From: Pirellulales bacterium
GTDB taxonomy: Bacteria > Planctomycetota > Planctomycetia > Pirellulales > PALSA-1355
DNA length: 64,000 bases
Reading direction: 5' to 3'
Assembly: GCA_022844125.1 (NCBI GenBank)
Contig: JALHMI010000006.1
Coordinates: 62,001-126,000 of the forward strand
Made by a program: the position numbers and the translations under genes. Below the pieces are notes generated by a model. The model did no database searches and was not told the DNA's origin. It worked only from the letters and a program-made list of their open reading frames with translations. Position 1 is the stretch's first letter. Every line of letters starts with the position of its first letter. Below, piece after piece: positions 8,206-38,444 of the stretch.

Positions 8206-10383
8206 ATGTTCTCGCGGACTGAAGCCACGGCCCTCTCGCCCGAACCTACCAGCGACGCAATGGAACCACACCTGACCCAAGCCGACGAAACGCCTCGCGG
8301 TGGACCGCTGAAGTTCACTTATGCGAGCGGCGCGCGCCCGCTGGATGGCTACACCATCAAGCGCGGGATCGGTCGGGGCGGTTTTGGCGAGGTGTACTTC
8401 GCGGTGAGTGACGGCGGCAAGGAAGTCGCGCTCAAGCTGATCCGGCACAACCTCGAGGTCGAGCTGCGCGGCGTGGCCCACTGCTTGAACCTCAAGCATC
8501 ACAACCTGATCGCGCTGTACGACGTCAAACAAGACGACAATGAAAACACCTGGGTTGTGATGGAGTACGCGGTTGGCGATTCGCTCGAGGAACTGCTCGA
8601 CCGCCATCCCAACGGCCTCTCGACCGAGGACGCTTGCGACTGGTTCAGCGGCATTGCGGCGGGCGTCGGTTACCTGCACGACCACGGCATCGTCCACCGC
8701 GACCTGAAGCCGGGCAATATCTTTCGCGATGACGGCCAGGTGAAGCTGGGCGACTATGGACTCTCGAAGTTCATCTCGTGCAGCCGCCGCAGCGGACAGA
8801 CCGAAAGCATCGGCACCGTCCATTACATGGCGCCTGAAGTGGCAAACGGCCGCTACGGCAAAGAGATCGACATCTACGCCCTGGGCATCATCTTGTATGA
8901 GATGCTCACCGGCCAGGTTCCGTTCGAAGGCGAGAGCATCGGCGAAGTCTTGATGAAGCATCTGACAGCCGAGCCTTCGCTCGACAAGCTGCCGGACGGT
9001 TATCGGCAGGTGGTCGCCCGGGCGCTGGCCAAGGATCCGCTGGCGCGGTTTGCGAGCGTTGGCGAAATGATGCACGCGCTGCCGCCAATGGCCAAGACCA
9101 TGGCCTATCGTCCGCCGGAGACGCGCTATCCGCACGAACAGCCGGCTACAGCGCAACCGAAGACCGAGCCGCCACAGGCAGCCGCCGCGCAAACCCATGC
9201 GTCGGGCGAACCAATTATGGCCCAGTTCGTCGCCGGCGCAGCGGGAGTGGCTCAGGCGGCCGTTGACGACGACGACCCGGTGTGGAATGCGGTGCGCGAC
9301 GGCTGGAAGAATGCCCGCGATAGTTGGGACCGGCTGAACACGCCGACGAAGGTCGCCGTGGCCGTGATCGGTTGCGCGGCATTGGCCTACAACTTCCAGC
9401 TTGTGCTGGGGTTGATCGTTCCGGCCGTGGCACTGTACGTGCTGTATCGGGTGGTGCGATCGGTGATCTTGCATCACGAACAGAAGAAAGCTCGCTGGGT
9501 TCCAGTGGGGTCGCCGCAAGCGGCGCGTTCGGCCGCGCCGCCAACTCCTCAAGCAACACCGAGGCCAATTCAGCCGGTCGGAAGTCTCGACGCAACGACG
9601 TATCAGCCAGCTGCGCGGGCTTCAACCGCAGCAGAGCCGGCCGCGCCGGCGAAACCTGGCGATTGGCGGGCTGCGAGCGCGAAGCACTGGAAGCGCCAGA
9701 GTTCGAAGCGTTGGCGTCAGGAGGCTGCCCAGTCGCTGGCGGTGAAGAGCGTCCGCGAACGCGTGGCCGACCTGGCCGGTTCAATGTTGTTGGCCGCCGT
9801 AGTGGCTTCGATCATGAGCATCGTGGCCGTGATCCTGCGGGGACAGACGAGTGTCGAACAGAACCAGTTTGCCTGGCTGACGCTGACCAGTGTGCTCGGC
9901 TCGTGGGCGGTGCTGATTCCCTCGACGTTCTGGGCTGGCACCGACGGCGATCAGACGCTGCGGCGCGTGACGATGCTGGTGGTGGGCTTGCTGGTGGGGG
10001 CCGCGGCTTACCTGGCCTCGACGACGCTGCTGGTGCAGTTCGACGACGCGAAGGGCGTGCACGAATTCATTCAGCTCGACTTCAGCAAGAACTTTTACGA
10101 CACCAAGGGTCTGCCGCAGTTGCCGGCCTACCTGGCCTATTTCGGCGCGATGCTGGCGAGCATTCGCTGGTGGCGGCAGGCCGACCCGCTCCGCCGCACG
10201 CGACTGAGCGTGTGGAACGTGGGCGCGGCGGTGATGGGCGCCTGGGTCGTCGACTGGTTCTGGCGTTTTCCGCAGCCGTGGGGCCTGATGGTCGCGGCCA
10301 TTATTTCGACCTCGGTACAACTGGCTGCTCCCCAAGTCACGGCTCCTGTGGATGAGCCCGCAGTGAAGGAGAAACTGTCGTGA
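8206..10383 (+). CDS. Membrane-anchored Ser/Thr protein kinase
   Basis: A 725-residue Hanks-type kinase. The catalytic domain covers about residues 48-300: Gly-rich loop GIGRGGFGEV (54-63), ATP-binding Lys77 in ALKLI, catalytic HRDLKPGN (164-171), a DYG in place of the usual DFG (183-185), and APE (209-211). A Pro/Ala/Gln-rich linker (about 305-345) leads to one or more hydrophobic segments at about 380-415, a basic linker, and then a C-terminal block with several membrane spans (about 525-715). Unlike most bacterial PASTA-type kinases it has no recognisable extracellular sensor. The next gene overlaps its stop codon (GTGA), so the two are translationally coupled. Confidence 0.9.
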   Translation: MFSRTEATALSPEPTSDAMEPHLTQADETPRGGPLKFTYASGARPLDGYTIKRGIGRGGFGEVYFAVSDGGKEVALKLIRHNLEVELRGVAHCLNLKHHNLIALYDVKQDDNENTWVVMEYAVGDSLEELLDRHPNGLSTEDACDWFSGIAAGVGYLHDHGIVHRDLKPGNIFRDDGQVKLGDYGLSKFISCSRRSGQTESIGTVHYMAPEVANGRYGKEIDIYALGIILYEMLTGQVPFEGESIGEVLMKHLTAEPSLDKLPDGYRQVVARALAKDPLARFASVGEMMHALPPMAKTMAYRPPETRYPHEQPATAQPKTEPPQAAAAQTHASGEPIMAQFVAGAAGVAQAAVDDDDPVWNAVRDGWKNARDSWDRLNTPTKVAVAVIGCAALAYNFQLVLGLIVPAVALYVLYRVVRSVILHHEQKKARWVPVGSPQAARSAAPPTPQATPRPIQPVGSLDATTYQPAARASTAAEPAAPAKPGDWRAASAKHWKRQSSKRWRQEAAQSLAVKSVRERVADLAGSMLLAAVVASIMSIVAVILRGQTSVEQNQFAWLTLTSVLGSWAVLIPSTFWAGTDGDQTLRRVTMLVVGLLVGAAAYLASTTLLVQFDDAKGVHEFIQLDFSKNFYDTKGLPQLPAYLAYFGAMLASIRWWRQADPLRRTRLSVWNVGAAVMGAWVVDWFWRFPQPWGLMVAAIISTSVQLAAPQVTAPVDEPAVKEKLS

Positions 10384-12032
10384 GCATCTCCTGGGTTGGT
10401 ATCGGATTGCTCGTTCTGTTCGGTATGGCGATGTTCAAGTGCACGCGCGGCGCGTGCAGCCGTGGACCAGGCTTCGTCGCCAAGACGCTCGGCGTCGTGG
10501 CCGTCGTGGCCGGTGTATGGATGCTGGTGGCTCGCGATCACGACCGACGCGTGGTTGTGGATCACGCGGTCGTCCGCGATGTCGGGTTTGAGAAGATACG
10601 GTTCGCAGAGGATGGTCCGCTCGGCGATAACTTTAATCCGTTGGGAGAGAACTTCGATCCATTGGGACCGGATTTCGATCCGCTGCGCGACCACCACAAG
10701 CGTTTCAAAGATTCTTCCCCGCGGATCGGGATGTTCGTTCTGCTCGGCATTGGGTTGATCATTCTGGGAGCGATGCTCTTTGGTCGCGACAAGCAAAAGC
10801 CGTTCGCACTCAAGGCGATCACCTGGCTGGGCATCGGAGCGATCATCTTCGCAGTGGCCAACTTCTTTGGCGAAGCGCCGCACGCCGATCGGGTTTCGCA
10901 TCGGGTGGTTGACGCTCGGGCTCGGCAGGTGGAAGAGGAACATGCGGCCCGAAGGCCTTCCCGTCCCGGCCGGGCCAAGCGTCCATCGCTGCGACCGGAT
11001 CGGCCGGCGAGCTCGCGCACGGATCGCGACGAAGCCGAAGTCACACTGCCTCCGCGAGCGGGCTCGATTCCGGTCGAGATCGAGATTGCCAAGGTGGCTG
11101 CCGAGCGGAAGGAAGCCCTCGAAGAAGCGGAGCGCGCCCGCAAAGAAGCGGCCCGAGAAGCTGAGGAGGCCAAGGCCGAGGCAGCGCGTGAGATAGAAGC
11201 TGCGAAAGCCGAAGCCGCTCAGGATCTTGAGGAAGCTAAGGCTGACGTTGCAGAAGCCAAGGCCGAAGCCGAAGCGGAGATCGCCGCTGCGAAAGCTGAA
11301 CGCGAGCAGACGGAAGACGATCAGGAAGAAGCGAAGCAACAGATCGAGACGGCGGACGCTAAGCCTGCCGTCGAAGCTGCCGAACCCAAGGCTGTTTCTG
11401 AGCCCAAGCCGGCCCAAGTGCCCGTCGCGGAGACCGTCGCCGTCGAGAACGAGGCGTCAAAACCACACCGAGTCGCCGTGGTCAGCACAAGCGGCGATCG
11501 CCCCGCCTGGGTCACGGCCGGGCCGGCGCTGGTGGACGGCGTGTATCGCATGACGGTCAGCTCGGGACCGTGGAGCAGTGTGCCGGAATGCCAGCACGCG
11601 CTCGACGAGGAGGTGCTGGCGGCGACGAACAATTATATCAACGAGTATCTTGGCAATCCGCAGGCGGCCTCGCTGGTGAACATCTCGCCGAACTATCTGC
11701 GGCAGCACGTGCGCAAAACGGAGCACTCGGAGATTGTTGATTCGCCGGCCGTGGGCCAGATGCACCAGCTTCATGCCCAGCTCGAGTTCGATGAGCGTGT
11801 CCGCGCCGACTTCGAACGCATGTGGCGGAACGCCGTGGTGCAGGATCGGCTGTGGTACATCGGCGGCGGCGGAGCATTGGTGCTCGCCCTGCTCGGTACA
11901 CTCTACGGCTATCTGAAGCTGGAGCTGCGAACCGACTCGGCCAGCCGCGGCAAGCTGCAACTCGCGGCAACGCTGGTAGCGCTGATCGTCGCGGCGGGTG
12001 CGCTGCTGGCGCGGTGGACCGTGGCGTTTTAG
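10380..12032 (+). CDS. Membrane protein with long Ala/Glu coiled coil, coupled to the kinase
   Basis: A 550-residue protein that starts at GTG 10380, overlapping the kinase stop codon by 3 nt. Two N-terminal membrane spans (about 4-18 and 34-51) are followed by a short internal repeat, NPLGENFDPLGPDFDPL, then two more spans near residues 115-160. Residues ~235-330 are a highly charged Ala/Glu/Lys coiled coil built of near-repeats such as EEAKAEAAREIEAAKAEAA. The C-terminus carries a conserved-looking domain (WVTAGPALVDGVYRMTVSSG...) and two final spans. No known family is recognised. Coupling suggests it is a partner, scaffold or substrate of the kinase. Confidence 0.7.
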   Translation: MSISWVGIGLLVLFGMAMFKCTRGACSRGPGFVAKTLGVVAVVAGVWMLVARDHDRRVVVDHAVVRDVGFEKIRFAEDGPLGDNFNPLGENFDPLGPDFDPLRDHHKRFKDSSPRIGMFVLLGIGLIILGAMLFGRDKQKPFALKAITWLGIGAIIFAVANFFGEAPHADRVSHRVVDARARQVEEEHAARRPSRPGRAKRPSLRPDRPASSRTDRDEAEVTLPPRAGSIPVEIEIAKVAAERKEALEEAERARKEAAREAEEAKAEAAREIEAAKAEAAQDLEEAKADVAEAKAEAEAEIAAAKAEREQTEDDQEEAKQQIETADAKPAVEAAEPKAVSEPKPAQVPVAETVAVENEASKPHRVAVVSTSGDRPAWVTAGPALVDGVYRMTVSSGPWSSVPECQHALDEEVLAATNNYINEYLGNPQAASLVNISPNYLRQHVRKTEHSEIVDSPAVGQMHQLHAQLEFDERVRADFERMWRNAVVQDRLWYIGGGGALVLALLGTLYGYLKLELRTDSASRGKLQLAATLVALIVAAGALLARWTVAF

Positions 12033-12161: not shown

Positions 12162-13553
12162 CTACTCCAGCAGTTCCGCGATCTCGTTCATCGAGAGCTC
12201 GCGCTGGCGTACGTCAGCCACCAGTGTCTTTCGCAGAATCGTGGCGAACGGCTCGGGCACTTCGGACGCGTAACGCTCCCCGTCGATCGCGTCGATCTGC
12301 CGCAGCACATCGAGCAGGTTGTCGCCGCGAATGGCTTTCTGGCCGGCAAGCATTTCGTAGAGCATCAGTCCCAGCGAGAACACATCGCTCTCGGGCGAGG
12401 CCGGTTCGCTGCGCGTCTGCTCGGGTGACATATAGGCCGGCGTGCCCGACAGGCCCGAGGGATCGACCGTGGCCCAATCGCCGGTTTCGTGCATCGGCGA
12501 GCTGCGTTGTTTGCGGTGTGCGAGACCGAAGTCCATTACCTTGGCTAGTCCTTCGGTCGTGACCATGATGTTGGCCGGCTTGAGGTCGCCGTGCACCACG
12601 TGGCCGGCGTGGGCGGCGGACATGCCGAGGGCGATCTGCCGGCCGATCCCTTTGACTTCATCGGCGCCGAGCCTGCCGCCCGACAGGATATCGTCGAGCG
12701 GGCGGCCATTGACGTGTTCCATCACGATCATCGAGATGCCATCGTTCTCGTCGACCGCATGGATCGTGCAGACGTTCGGATGGTTGAGTGCGGCCGCCGC
12801 ACGGGCTTCGTCCAGCATGCGCCGCGGTGAGCCGGCCGGCCCCGGGCGGAAGACCTTGAGCGCGACCTGCCGTTCGAGCGTGAGGTCTTTAGCGCGATAG
12901 ACCACGCCGAAGGCACCGCTGCCGAGTTCTTCTTCGATGCGATATTGCCCGACGACGCTGCCGCCGCGCAAGACGCGCGTCGGGTCGAGCACGGGTGCAT
13001 CGCGGCTCCAGCTTTCGGGACAGAGCCCTCCGGTTTGCAGGCCGTCGAGCACGCGGACGACTTCTTCGCTGCGGCGGCCGACGCTGAGATTGTGCACGAC
13101 CTGGTATTGCAGCACGCCGTTGGGATCGATGATGAACAGGCCGCGCAGCGCGACATTCTGGCGCGGCACGAGCACGCCGTAAGCCAGGCAGACTTCGCCG
13201 CTCTCGTCGCTCGCCAGCGGGAACGACAGTCCGCCGAGTCCGCCCTGGTTGCGCGGGGTGGCAATCCACTTTTGATGGCTGGCCACCGAGTCGGTGCTGA
13301 CGCCCAGGATGTCGCAATCGCGGCGGGTGAATTCGTCGTACTGTACGCTGAGGGCGGTCAGCTCGGTGGGGCACACCATCGAGAAGTCGCGCGGATAGAA
13401 GATCAGCACCAGCCAGCGATCGCGATAATCGTCGAGGCGCACGATCCGCTCGGCCGTATCCGGCCAGGCCGTGCAGGGGAGCGTAAAATCCGGGGCTCGG
13501 GAGCCCACCATCACCGGCGCCGTGCGGCCGGCCGTTTTCGATTGTGTAGCCAT
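12162..13553 (-). CDS. 2-Cys peroxiredoxin fused to a Ser/Thr protein kinase
   Basis: A 463-residue fusion. Residues 15-185 are an AhpC/TSA peroxiredoxin: YPRDFSMVCPTEL carries the peroxidatic Cys61 with the upstream Pro and Thr of the active site, and GGLCPESW carries a typical resolving Cys178, so the redox centre looks intact. Residues 204-463 are a Hanks-type kinase: Gly-rich GSGAFGVVY (211-219), Lys233 in VALKVF, catalytic HGDLKPANI (321-329, Gly replacing the usual Arg), DFG 341-343 and a SPE (376-378) in place of APE. No membrane segment is seen, so it should be cytoplasmic. Peroxide-driven disulfide formation could control kinase output; this is inferred from the architecture. It is divergent from the gene at 13612, 58 bp away. 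Confidence 0.9.
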   Translation of the reverse strand: MATQSKTAGRTAPVMVGSRAPDFTLPCTAWPDTAERIVRLDDYRDRWLVLIFYPRDFSMVCPTELTALSVQYDEFTRRDCDILGVSTDSVASHQKWIATPRNQGGLGGLSFPLASDESGEVCLAYGVLVPRQNVALRGLFIIDPNGVLQYQVVHNLSVGRRSEEVVRVLDGLQTGGLCPESWSRDAPVLDPTRVLRGGSVVGQYRIEEELGSGAFGVVYRAKDLTLERQVALKVFRPGPAGSPRRMLDEARAAAALNHPNVCTIHAVDENDGISMIVMEHVNGRPLDDILSGGRLGADEVKGIGRQIALGMSAAHAGHVVHGDLKPANIMVTTEGLAKVMDFGLAHRKQRSSPMHETGDWATVDPSGLSGTPAYMSPEQTRSEPASPESDVFSLGLMLYEMLAGQKAIRGDNLLDVLRQIDAIDGERYASEVPEPFATILRKTLVADVRQRELSMNEIAELLE

Positions 13554-16837: not shown

Positions 16838-16985
16838 CGGTTGGCGCTGACAACTTGCTTGTTAGTGGGCTTTAGCCCAAGAGGGATCAGATATCGCGTG
16901 ACAAGACATCGAGGTCCGTCACTGGGACCGCGCGTCCTGAGCCCTCTTGTTGCTGCGCAACACCGACAGATTGTCGGTGCCACCC
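16838..16985 (+). repeat. BIME-like palindromic element, copy 1
   Basis: A ~148 bp unit: left hairpin near TGACAACTTG, a CCCAAGAGGGATCAG block, a variable core, GAGCCCTCTTG, then the right hairpin CACCGACAGATTGTCGGTG and terminal CCACCC. This copy's left arm is diverged (GCTGACAACTTGCTTGTTAG). It is the first of three units spaced ~175 bp apart on one side of the RAYT gene. Confidence 0.85.
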
Positions 16986-17011
16986 GGCGGTGCTTTCCAG
17001 TGAATGGATCT

Positions 17012-17161
17012 GGGTGGCACTGACAGCTTGCCTGTCAGTGGGCCGTCAGGCCCAAGAGGGATCAGGACGGGCTTTAAGGCATGGTGCGGTGGGCGATTGG
17101 GTGACGCGTTCACAGGACCCTCTTGTTGCTGCGCAACACCGACAGGTTGTCGGTGCCACCC
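17012..17161 (+). repeat. BIME-like palindromic element, copy 2
   Basis: 150 bp, bounded by GGGTGG and CCACCC. Left hairpin CACTGACAG/CTGTCAGTG, right hairpin CACCGACAG/TTGTCGGTG. The ~26 bp spacers between copies 1-2 and 2-3 are themselves alike (GGCGGTGCTT...GGATCT), so copies 1-3 form a tandem array with a period of ~175 bp. Confidence 0.88.
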
Positions 17162-17187
17162 GGCGGTGCTTCCGAGGGAATGGATCT

Positions 17188-17334
17188 GGGTGGCACTGAC
17201 AACTTGTTTGTCAGTGGGCGTCAGCCCAAGAGGGATCAGGTCGCGCGTGACAAGTCGTTGGGGTCTATCACTCAGGACCGCGCGTCCTGAGCCCTCTTGT
17301 TGCTGCGCAACACCGACAATTGTCGGTGCCACCC
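17188..17334 (+). repeat. BIME-like palindromic element, copy 3
   Basis: 147 bp with GGGTGG and CCACCC ends. The left hairpin CACTGACAA/TTGTCAGTG is perfect (9 bp) and the right hairpin CACCGACAATTGTCGGTG is a perfect palindrome. It ends 14 bp before the RAYT stop codon. Confidence 0.9.
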
Positions 17335-17347
17335 GATCTCACGTTGC

Positions 17348-17857
17348 TCAATCAAGCCAAGTGACGGGCACACCGACGGATTTGCCATCTTCATAGTACC
17401 GCGCAGAGCTCCAGCGCCAGTCGCAAGGCTTCTCAACGAGGCCGGCGCGGACGGGATTCTGATGCATGTAGGTCAGCTTCTCTTCGAGCTTGGCGTGGCT
17501 GAAGACATTGAACACGTAGTACTTGGCCTGCCAGACCGGTGACTCCTCAAGCTGTTCGGAATAGCGGGTCAACACCGTCGCGAGCAAATGAGCGATTCGC
17601 AGGCTGCTGGTGCGCTTCCACTGCTTCATGAAGTCACTGATGTGCTTGGGGTCCGGAAACCAGACCAGCGCGTGCACATGGTTGGGCATCAGGACGAAGC
17701 CGACGCACTTGCCGGCGAGGCGACGAAGTTGTGCGCTCAATGCTCCGAGCACGATGCGTTTCGCGGCGTCATCGTCGAGTAGACGGCGCCGTTTGTAGCA
17801 AGAGAATGTCACGAAGTAGACGCAACGCTCGCGGTTGTAGATCTTTCGTCGGGACAT
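17348..17857 (-). CDS. REP-associated tyrosine transposase (RAYT)
   Basis: A 169-residue single-strand DNA transposase of the IS200/Y1 HUH superfamily. The metal-binding HUH motif is H60-V-H62 in FVLMPNHVHALV, and the catalytic Tyr is Y130 in LTYMHQNPVRAGLV, followed by the RAYT-typical DWRWSSARYY block (146-155). Length fits the compact RAYT branch. Known RAYTs act on REP/BIME palindromes and are domesticated singletons without terminal repeats of their own. Three ~147 bp palindromic elements lie on each side of the gene, the arrangement called a REPtron in gamma-proteobacteria. Start at 17857 with GGGGCATG context. The reading frame is intact, so activity is possible. Confidence 0.92.
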   Translation of the reverse strand: MSRRKIYNRERCVYFVTFSCYKRRRLLDDDAAKRIVLGALSAQLRRLAGKCVGFVLMPNHVHALVWFPDPKHISDFMKQWKRTSSLRIAHLLATVLTRYSEQLEESPVWQAKYYVFNVFSHAKLEEKLTYMHQNPVRAGLVEKPCDWRWSSARYYEDGKSVGVPVTWLD

Positions 17858-17902
17858 GCCCCTAGCCTATTGTGGCGGGCAATGCAGGTGCAAGATCGTG
17901 AT

Positions 17903-17950
17903 GGGGCACTGTGACAACTGGTTGTCACTGGGTCGTAATGGGACCGCGGA
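17903..17950 (+). repeat. Partial BIME-like element
   Basis: A truncated and diverged left half: CACTGTGACAACTGGTTGTC followed by ACTGGGTCGTAATGGGACCG. It joins the left hairpin directly to the core segment seen in full copies, as if an internal deletion had removed the AAGAGGGATC block. Confidence 0.55.
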
Positions 17951-17957
17951 ATTTTCT

Positions 17958-18104
17958 GGGTGGCCCTGACAACTCGTTTGTCAGTGGGCCTTCAGGCCCA
18001 AGAGGGATCGGGCAGGGCGTAGCAAGACACTGGGGTCTGTCACTTAGGAACGCGCGTCCTGAGCCCTCTTGTGCTGCGCACACCGACAATTGTCGGTGCC
18101 ACCC
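17958..18104 (+). repeat. BIME-like palindromic element, copy 4
   Basis: 147 bp with GGGTGG and CCACCC ends. The left hairpin reads CCTGACAACTCGTTTGTCAG and the right hairpin is CACCGACAATTGTCGGTG. The loop of the CTCTTG segment is shortened (GTGCTGCGCAC). It starts 100 bp upstream of the RAYT start codon. Confidence 0.88.
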
Positions 18105-18130
18105 GATCCAAGCAGATTCAAGAACTGCCC

Positions 18131-18279
18131 GGGTGGCCCTGACAACTTGTTTGTCAGTGGGCCTTCAGGCCCAAGAGGGATCGGGCAGGGCGTAGCAAGA
18201 CACTGGGGGCTGTCACTGGGACCGCGCGTCCTGAGCCCTCTTGTTGCTGCGCAACACCGACAGATTGTCGGTGCCACCC
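18131..18279 (+). repeat. BIME-like palindromic element, copy 5
   Basis: 149 bp with GGGTGG and CCACCC ends. The core (TCGGGCAGGGCGTAGCAAGA) is nearly identical to that of copy 4, showing recent duplication of neighbouring copies. Confidence 0.88.
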
Positions 18280-18300
18280 GACTGAAACGTGAGGAGACCG

Positions 18301-18443
18301 GGGTGGCCCTGACAAGTGTCAGGGTGCCTCCGGCACAAGAGGGATCAGGTCGGGCGCGACAAGCCCCTGGGGTCTGTCACTCAGGACCGCGTGTCCTGAA
18401 CCCTCTTGTTGCTGCGCAACACCGACAATTGTCGGTGCTACCC
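18301..18443 (+). repeat. BIME-like palindromic element, copy 6
   Basis: 143 bp. The left hairpin is shorter (CCTGACAAGTGTCAGG) and the right end reads GTGCTACCC instead of GTGCCACCC. It ends 32 bp before the stop of the DUF1501 gene. Confidence 0.85.
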
Positions 18444-18474
18444 GGTACCCTGTTGCGTCAAACAACCAGCAATA

Positions 18475-37928: not shown

Positions 37929-38444
37929 CTACTTCTTCTTCACGCCGAGCTCTTCGAGCTGGGCGGCAATTTCGGCTGCCGCGTCCTTCGTGTTCACCAT
38001 CTTGTCGATCGCTTGGATCGTGCCGTCCGGACCGATGTAGAACGTCCAGCGCTCAGGCACCTGGCGGCCTTCGTGCACCACGCCGTAAGCTTCGGCCGTC
38101 TTCTTGCCCGGGTCGCTGAGGATCGGATAGTCGAGCGAGAGCGATTCAGCGAACTTGGTGTTCGTGGCGTGGTCGTCCGTGCTGGCGGTGAAGTAAACCA
38201 CGTCGTAGGCCTTGATCGCTTTGCCGTTCTCCTTCATGTTCTTGCACTCGGCCGTGCAGCCGCCGGTGAACGCCTTCGGGAACCAGGCGATGACGACCGT
38301 CTTGCCGGCGAGATCTTTCAGCGAGTGTTCCTTGCCGTCGGAACCTTGCAGCTTAAAGTCGGGAGCTTTATCGCCGACTTCGGGAGCGGCTTGTGCGAAC
38401 GAGGCGGAGAGCAGCAGGGCGGCAAGTGCGAGGGTGGGTTTCAT
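37929..38444 (-). CDS. Secreted peroxiredoxin (BCP/AhpC-TSA type)
   Basis: A 171-residue thiol peroxidase with a signal peptide (1-19, ending FAQAAP), so it works in the periplasm, unlike most peroxiredoxins. The active site is FPKAFTGGCTAECKNM, with peroxidatic Cys63 and a second Cys67 four residues later as in the BCP alpha2-type class that forms an intramolecular disulfide. Flanking motifs GDKAPDFKLQGSDGKEHSLKD and ASTDDHATNTKFAESLSLDYPILSD are typical. It would reduce hydrogen peroxide or organic peroxides. It is a single gene, convergent with the immunity island. Confidence 0.88.
   Translation of the reverse strand: MKPTLALAALLLSASFAQAAPEVGDKAPDFKLQGSDGKEHSLKDLAGKTVVIAWFPKAFTGGCTAECKNMKENGKAIKAYDVVYFTASTDDHATNTKFAESLSLDYPILSDPGKKTAEAYGVVHEGRQVPERWTFYIGPDGTIQAIDKMVNTKDAAAEIAAQLEELGVKKK

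Follow-up and report, generated by a model that had tools for sequence, protein, structure and literature searches.

Can a bacterial Ser/Thr kinase carry its own peroxide sensor in the same polypeptide? This question is raised by one gene in a 64,000-nucleotide stretch of DNA from a Pirellulales bacterium (assembly GCA_022844125.1, contig JALHMI010000006.1, positions 62,001 to 126,000), which was analysed at its full length and is called the window below. The host genome comprises 6.4 Mb in 27 contigs. The gene turned out to be a member of a conserved domain fusion of one lineage, which is built from two known kinds of protein and has a probable selenoprotein branch.

One reading frame encodes a peroxiredoxin and a kinase

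An earlier note on this DNA had read a single frame as a 2-Cys peroxiredoxin (Prx) joined to a complete Hanks-type kinase. This reading was borne out, as the frame, which starts with ATG and encodes 463 amino acids, contains both Pfam domains, AhpC-TSA (residues 16-150, E 8.4e-38) and Pkinase (residues 204-455, E 7e-45). The residues named in that note (C61, C178, K233, D323, DFG and HGDLKPAN) all lie where it had placed them, and its estimate that the resolving Cys stands about 25 residues ahead of the kinase fold agrees with the 25 residues counted from C178 to Y204, where the Pfam kinase match begins. Apart from the Prx, no input domain for the kinase was matched by Pfam in the window protein. 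The features are collected in Table 1.

Table 1. Features of the fusion gene in the window, and peroxidatic TGA codons of related loci (locus:position)
Feature	Position	Strand	Basis or remark
Prx-kinase fusion gene	12162..13553	-	ATG start, 463 aa plus stop, no internal stop
Typical 2-Cys (Prx1/AhpC-type) peroxiredoxin domain, residues 15-182	13008..13511	-	Pfam, PDB relatives, Foldseek
Peroxidatic Cys61 (Cp) codon TGC	13371..13373	-	within FSMVCPTEL
Resolving Cys178 (Cr) codon TGT	13020..13022	-	within GGLCPESW
Junction, residues 179-203 (25 aa)	12945..13019	-	Prx tail to N-terminal strand of the kinase
Hanks-type Ser/Thr kinase domain, residues 204-455	12189..12944	-	Pfam Pkinase, Foldseek
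ATP-binding Lys233	12855..12857	-	Lys in 60/60 fusions
Catalytic-loop H321-G322-D323 (HGD, non-RD)	12585..12593	-	Gly in 59/60 fusions
DFG motif, residues 341-343	12525..12533	-	sequence reading
Cp TGA in other fusions	L055:3288, L058:10136, L060:2357, L062:10136		

A single-chain AlphaFold2 model of the protein has a mean pLDDT of 81.0 and a pTM of 0.59, so that the placement of one domain relative to the other is uncertain; the pLDDT falls below 50 at residues 343-368, inside the activation loop. The best 50 Foldseek matches to the model are PknA/PknB kinases and 2-Cys peroxiredoxins, with PknA (4ow8, E 2.7e-20) at the top.

The fusion is conserved among planctomycetes

The search across planctomycete genomes that the earlier note had called for yielded 60 sequence-distinct fusions including that of the window, almost all of them from planctomycete genomes, and thus refuted the idea that the fusion exists in this genome only. 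The genome samples overlap and their counts must not be summed. Full-length fusions were present in 7 of the 39 genomes of the near set (the window's own counted), where the others comprise three more genomes of the same family (69-71% identity) and three of the same order but of different families (53-58%). The spread in the order sample is patchy (19/396 genomes), and the phylum sample gave 12/392. When the searches were centred on two further fusion hosts, the class of G398 gave 42/396 genomes (12 of these 42 rows carry no locus), the order to which the Gemmataceae genome G397 belongs gave 4/102, and the order of G398, which is the window's order and returned identical contigs, gave 19/385. 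The 13 new loci from this last search, mostly from genomes already seen, were left out of the residue counts.

In a scan of named genomes 35 loci were found, of which 23 are full-length fusions (L052-L073 and L081), while the other 12 are non-fusions and were left out of the counts. The named hosts are listed as, for instance, Planctomycetota, Planctomycetaceae, Gemmataceae, Pirellulales, Rhodopirellula sp., Anammoximicrobium or simply "bacterium", and one of them, Aquisphaera insulae JC669, is an isolate. Duplicates, defined as exact matches over about 100-140 residues, were dropped (5 of 15 extra loci in one batch and 12 of 28 in another), and near-identical fusions were retained. Some of the hosts in the phylum sample are single-contig genomes (G636, G696, G775). 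An assembly join or a chimeric gene call, which would make the fusion an artefact, is refuted by the 60 distinct fusions, these single-contig genomes and the isolate, and can practically be dismissed. Outside the planctomycetes, the phylum of Anaeromyxobacter contributed a fusion in 1 of 195 genomes (G1075, locus L212, C112:8816-10144), which may reflect either gene transfer or a mis-binned contig, as the two look alike here.

The peroxiredoxin half retains its active site

The nearest solved structures of the Prx half among the PDB sequences are chloroplast BAS1 and human Prx2 and Prx1, with E values from 2.1e-41 to 7.9e-40. Its catalytic residues are fully conserved: Cp is Cys, or selenocysteine (Sec) in four cases, in 60/60 fusions, and Cr and Arg137 are likewise kept in all 60. 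The surrounding motif F-S-x-[VI]-C-P-T-E is present in 58 fusions, P54 in 59, and position 58 is Ser in 59 and Thr in one. Judged from these residues, the domain belongs to the Prx1/AhpC type, with a Cp motif of the form PxxxTxxC-P-[ST]-E, the catalytic Arg and a resolving Cys in the tail.

The tail of a typical 2-Cys Prx ends in a C-terminal motif, the YF helix, and the combination of GGLG with a free C-terminal YF helix marks the hyperoxidation-sensitive type of Prx. An exact GGLG is found in 35/60 fusions. A free YF helix is absent from the window protein, as its Prx tail lacks YF and runs on into the kinase. The Prx is intact up to this tail, where the window protein reads CPESW...VLDP compared with CPANW...TIKP in several stand-alone Prx, and the kinase follows.

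For 10 of the 35 genomes with a fusion, that of the window among them, the Prx domain of the fusion matched nothing besides the fusion itself at E<=1e-15; several of these ten are incomplete assemblies. The genome of the window has 44 AhpC-TSA-family matches including the fusion; the others are more distant, one of them being PrxQ-like. A second protein of this family is encoded inside the window itself at 37929-38444 (-) (Pfam 6.1e-34). Its nearest models are those of PrxQ/thiol peroxidases, all below their cut-offs, and by eye its start resembles a signal peptide.

Some fusions probably carry selenocysteine at the peroxidatic position

Four of the 60 fusions, L055, L058, L060 and L062, have an in-frame TGA exactly at Cp, and the remaining frame is open. 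All four genomes encode a tRNA-Sec with anticodon tca and a SelB above the cut-off. Of the other 33 fusion genomes tested, 11 likewise have SelB, so Cys forms live in SelB hosts as well. On the basis of their sequences the four are probable selenocysteine fusions. They come from no fewer than two orders, that of the window (G398) and that of the Gemmataceae genome G397, and the Cys fusion L041 is sister to the Sec fusion L058 in both the Prx and the kinase tree. The window gene itself uses Cys at Cp, and the best tRNA-Sec match in its genome is a tRNA-Ser. Sec machinery in other planctomycetes is reported in a 2016 genome paper (PMC4807772).

In a selenoprotein gene a bSECIS hairpin is expected immediately behind the TGA. 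The RNA downstream of the TGA was folded in a comparison of 47 loci, in which L159 failed the pattern and three duplicate pairs are present. The Sec genes reach folding energies of -16.3 to -17.3 kcal/mol, compared with a mean of -10.6 kcal/mol (sd 3.0, n=42) for the same stretch of the Cys copies, one of which falls within the Sec range. A hairpin with 7-8 possible pairs and the loop CGUGA is common to L058, L060 and L062 (z -2.5, -2.6 and -3.2); L055 lacks it and folds little better than its shuffles (z -0.8). Such z values are not specific, as the window's own Cys gene reaches -2.0 when the stretch is begun two bases late. The exact position of the TGA, the open frames and the Sec machinery thus carry more weight for Sec than the hairpin does. 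The interchange of Cys and Sec at Cp argues that the peroxide chemistry is under selection.

In Anaeromyxobacter sp. PSR-1 (L075) two adjacent Prx frames were seen at 10001-10495 and 10944-11423, the second of which has an in-frame stop at a Cys-like position; this genome has a tRNA-Sec.

The kinase half is complete and has an unusual HGD loop

The kinase half is also well preserved. K233, E249, H321, D323, K325, N328, D341, D390 and the [SA]PE motif are each kept in 60/60 fusions, the DFG glycine and R451 in 59/60, and the G-loop glycine G211 in all 44 fusions in which it was read. From sequence the domain thus has the complete set expected of a Hanks-type kinase, namely the G-loop, VAIK Lys, alpha-C Glu, HxD, Asn, DFG, an APE-type motif, the subdomain IX Asp and the subdomain XI Arg. 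It does not qualify as an RD kinase: the HGDLKPAN in place of HRD which the earlier note had pointed out is present in the window protein, and position 322 is Gly in 59/60 fusions and Arg in one.

For comparison, kinases of the window's genome and the best non-fusion matches of its relatives were used, a set that is not random. Fifty-two non-fusion kinases passed the length filter, and the HxD motif could be read in 50 and the activation loop in 40 of them; among the kinases of the window's own genome motifs were read in 30 of 35. HRD was found in 47 and HGD in 2 of the 50. The kinases L013, L014 and L017, which neighbour the fusion kinases in the tree (support 97/64), have HRD, in contrast to the HGD of 59/60 fusions. 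Read in this way from the sequences, HGD is a lineage trait acquired at or near the fusion event.

The suggestion that HGD frees the kinase from loop phosphorylation found no support, since 54/60 fusion activation loops contain a Thr preceded by an acidic residue at a distance of one or two positions, compared with 20/40 control loops, a count which is inflated by some long fusion loops. The length of the loop spans 7 to 85 across the 60 fusions.

C262 is the only widely conserved Cys of the kinase domain (56/60 fusions). Its equivalent also occurs in the non-fusion kinases L013, L014, L015, L016, L017 and L035, within HPHIC, HPNIC, HPYIC or HPHVC. The loop Cys known from the pair of yeast Tsa1 and PKA, which lies near the activation-loop Thr of PKA, would correspond to position 369, an equivalence that we take from the PKA motif; this position is Cys in only 2/60 fusions. 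An intramolecular thiol relay from Prx to kinase is therefore unlikely, because C262 is shared with Prx-free kinases and the PKA-type Cys is rare, although C262 may be oxidised by the Prx.

Two further observations concern kinases of this kind. An 839-aa frame in L108 (G428:C67:44001-45425) contains, by eye, a Prx, an HGD kinase and a second, HRD kinase. The 12.3-Mb genome G445 gave 1093 first-look candidates with the Prx-kinase profile, many more than any other genome listed, and this excess possibly reflects a large kinase expansion.

The two domains appear to be inherited together

From Cr to the position of Tyr204 there are 25 residues in 57/60 fusions and 26 in the remaining three, while the sequence of the junction is more variable (median pairwise identity 0.36) than that of the Prx (0.54) or the kinase (0.44). 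In a length control, segments of the junction's size were taken along the protein, and 307 of 413 were at least as constant as the junction. Its length is therefore as fixed as the domain core and unexceptional, and the use of constant length as special evidence is weakened; the notable feature of the junction is rather its more variable sequence.

Trees were calculated with 34 of the 60 fusions. Their Prx domains form one clade when compared with 29 stand-alone Prx (support 100/98), 19 of which come from genomes that also have the fusion; the stand-alone Prx L034 is absent from this tree owing to its short length. The kinase domains of the same fusions likewise group in a single clade, apart from the 52 other kinases (support 100/99). 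As each domain forms a single clade, the pair appears to be inherited together, and more than one origin of the fusion is unnecessary to explain the tree topologies obtained from these sequences.

Gene neighbourhood

The best 15 neighbour clusters over 24 loci comprise one cluster of three loci (L052-L054, the nearest relatives of the window) and otherwise clusters of two loci; no neighbour gene conserved beyond close relatives was found among them. An apparent five-locus cluster was discarded, as its coordinates identified it as reverse-strand frames overlying the fusion gene itself. Two of the Sec fusions have a gene for the acetate–CoA ligase AcsA directly upstream on the same strand (L060:231-2192 and L062:8011-9972), and a query with AcsA from the Sec loci matched no loci besides those of the L060 and L062 genomes. 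Within the window, a frame for a REP-associated tyrosine transposase lies at 17348-17857 (-) (NF047646, 108.7 bits, above the cut-off of 80) and has repeats of 36-124 nt around it, both direct and inverted, at 16838-18456.

Comparison with known systems

The fusion resembles typical 2-Cys Prx, such as eukaryotic Prx2, plant BAS1 and bacterial PrxU, in the context of Cp, the Prx Arg and the position of Cr in a GG[L]C tail. However, the tail behind Cr enters a kinase rather than a YF helix. PrxU is the best-scoring NCBIfam peroxiredoxin model for the window protein, but its 132 bits stay below the cut-off of 270. With the PknA/PknB group of Hanks kinases the fusion shares the fold and the catalytic residues, and its best NCBIfam match, PknB_PASTA, reaches 202 bits, below the PASTA-kinase cut-off of 450. 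Unlike members of this group it starts with a Prx, has HGD instead of HRD, and ends at the kinase with no PASTA match.

Functional contacts between Prx and kinases are known from other organisms and give the proposed switch an indirect precedent. Yeast Tsa1 modulates PKA and a Cys near the activation-loop Thr of PKA is modified (PMC7392609), and mammalian Prdx1 interacts with ASK1 (PMC8300624). In both cases H2O2 makes a 2-Cys Prx act on a kinase or bind to it; in contrast to the fusion, the partners are separate proteins. The TGA fusions would share Sec in place of the peroxidatic Cys with selenocysteine Prx, such as PrxU of Eubacterium acidaminophilum and others. A 2026 review (PMC13188914) lists Prx (PF00578, TxxU) among the prokaryotic selenoprotein families. 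The available text of this review names no kinase-fused selenoprotein, and both of its uses of "kinase" refer to PSTK. No description of a Prx-kinase fusion was found in the open-licence PMC literature, and the architecture may have been catalogued elsewhere without study. Prx-Grx hybrids were likewise not found there as a precedent.

A possible one-component peroxide switch

What the pair does has to be judged from conservation. The peroxide reaction appears to be in use, since Cp is only ever Cys or Sec and Cr is always kept; the kinase appears to be in use, since its catalytic residues are invariant; and the pairing seems to matter, since both halves are inherited as one protein. With modest confidence we lean to the reading that the planctomycete fusion is a one-component peroxide-responsive Ser/Thr kinase, in which coupling would occur by unfolding of the tail or by a change of oligomer. 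A direction from Prx input to kinase output is favoured, as Pfam offers no other input domain and as the disulfide would need the very tail that leads into the kinase.

Disulfide formation in Prx requires unfolding of the C-terminal tail, and in the reduced state typical 2-Cys Prx form decamers. Upon oxidation the decamer changes to dimers (PMC8300647). By analogy with this chemistry, H2O2 would react at Cp of the N-terminal Prx (Cys61, or Sec in some relatives), and Cp would then be linked by an intersubunit disulfide to the Cr (Cys178) on the partner subunit, for which the C-terminal tail of the Prx would have to unfold locally. As this tail has no free YF helix and enters the N-lobe of the kinase within 25 residues, oxidation should move or release the kinase, or alter the packing of the kinases on the dimer or decamer. 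The altered placement or packing would switch trans-autophosphorylation and phosphorylation of substrates, and reduction by a thioredoxin-type system would reset the switch. The disulfide, the unfolding and the oligomer change are presumed from known Prx chemistry; we infer, indirectly, both that oxidation would control the kinase and in which direction it would do so. Several points count against the switch: the placement of the two domains in the model is uncertain, the length of the junction is unexceptional, the fusion is patchily distributed in the order, support for a SECIS element in the TGA genes is partial, no conserved neighbour gene indicates a pathway, and the conservation in both halves equally fits an uncoupled bifunctional protein or a peroxidase regulated by its kinase.

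The last of these, a reverse control, would have the kinase, activated by another signal or by autophosphorylation, phosphorylate the attached Prx in cis or in trans and so tune its peroxidase or chaperone activity. Both halves appear catalytically intact in all 60 fusions, the acidic residues beside the loop Thr would allow autophosphorylation, and phosphorylation of eukaryotic Prx1 is known. However, the kinase of the window protein has no further Pfam input domain, and we consider reverse control unlikely. A scaffold role, in which the Prx decamer would cluster the kinases and the redox chemistry would be residual antioxidant activity with no part in signalling, is distinctly less credible. 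Ser58, present in almost every fusion, corresponds to the Ser-type active site, which is reportedly more stable as a decamer (PMC8300647), but a scaffold needs neither the complete retention of Cp and Cr nor a TGA at Cp in four fusions. There is also little to recommend an uncoupled protein, in which peroxidase and kinase would merely share expression and location. It is compatible with all of the sequence conservation, and the pTM of the model makes no structural coupling evident; on the other side stand the spacer-less junction of 25-26 residues in every fusion, tempered by the length control, and the HGD change typical of the lineage, which together suggest co-adaptation.

If the peroxide switch is the correct reading, the fusions would constitute a new class, a one-component redox receptor kinase with a peroxidase as its covalent sensor, which extends through Planctomycetota and has a Sec version in at least two orders; on this wider proposal we are evenly divided. 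It includes what may be a selenoprotein kinase, in which Sec raises the reactivity towards peroxide. Signalling from Prx to kinases is hard to study in the known cases because the partners are separate proteins. In a conserved covalent pair the question would become testable in one purified protein, and the naturally occurring Cys and Sec forms would serve as a matched set of reagents. Planctomycetes have dozens of kinases per genome, as seen in the near set, and if the switch is true, one among these dozens would gain an identifiable input.
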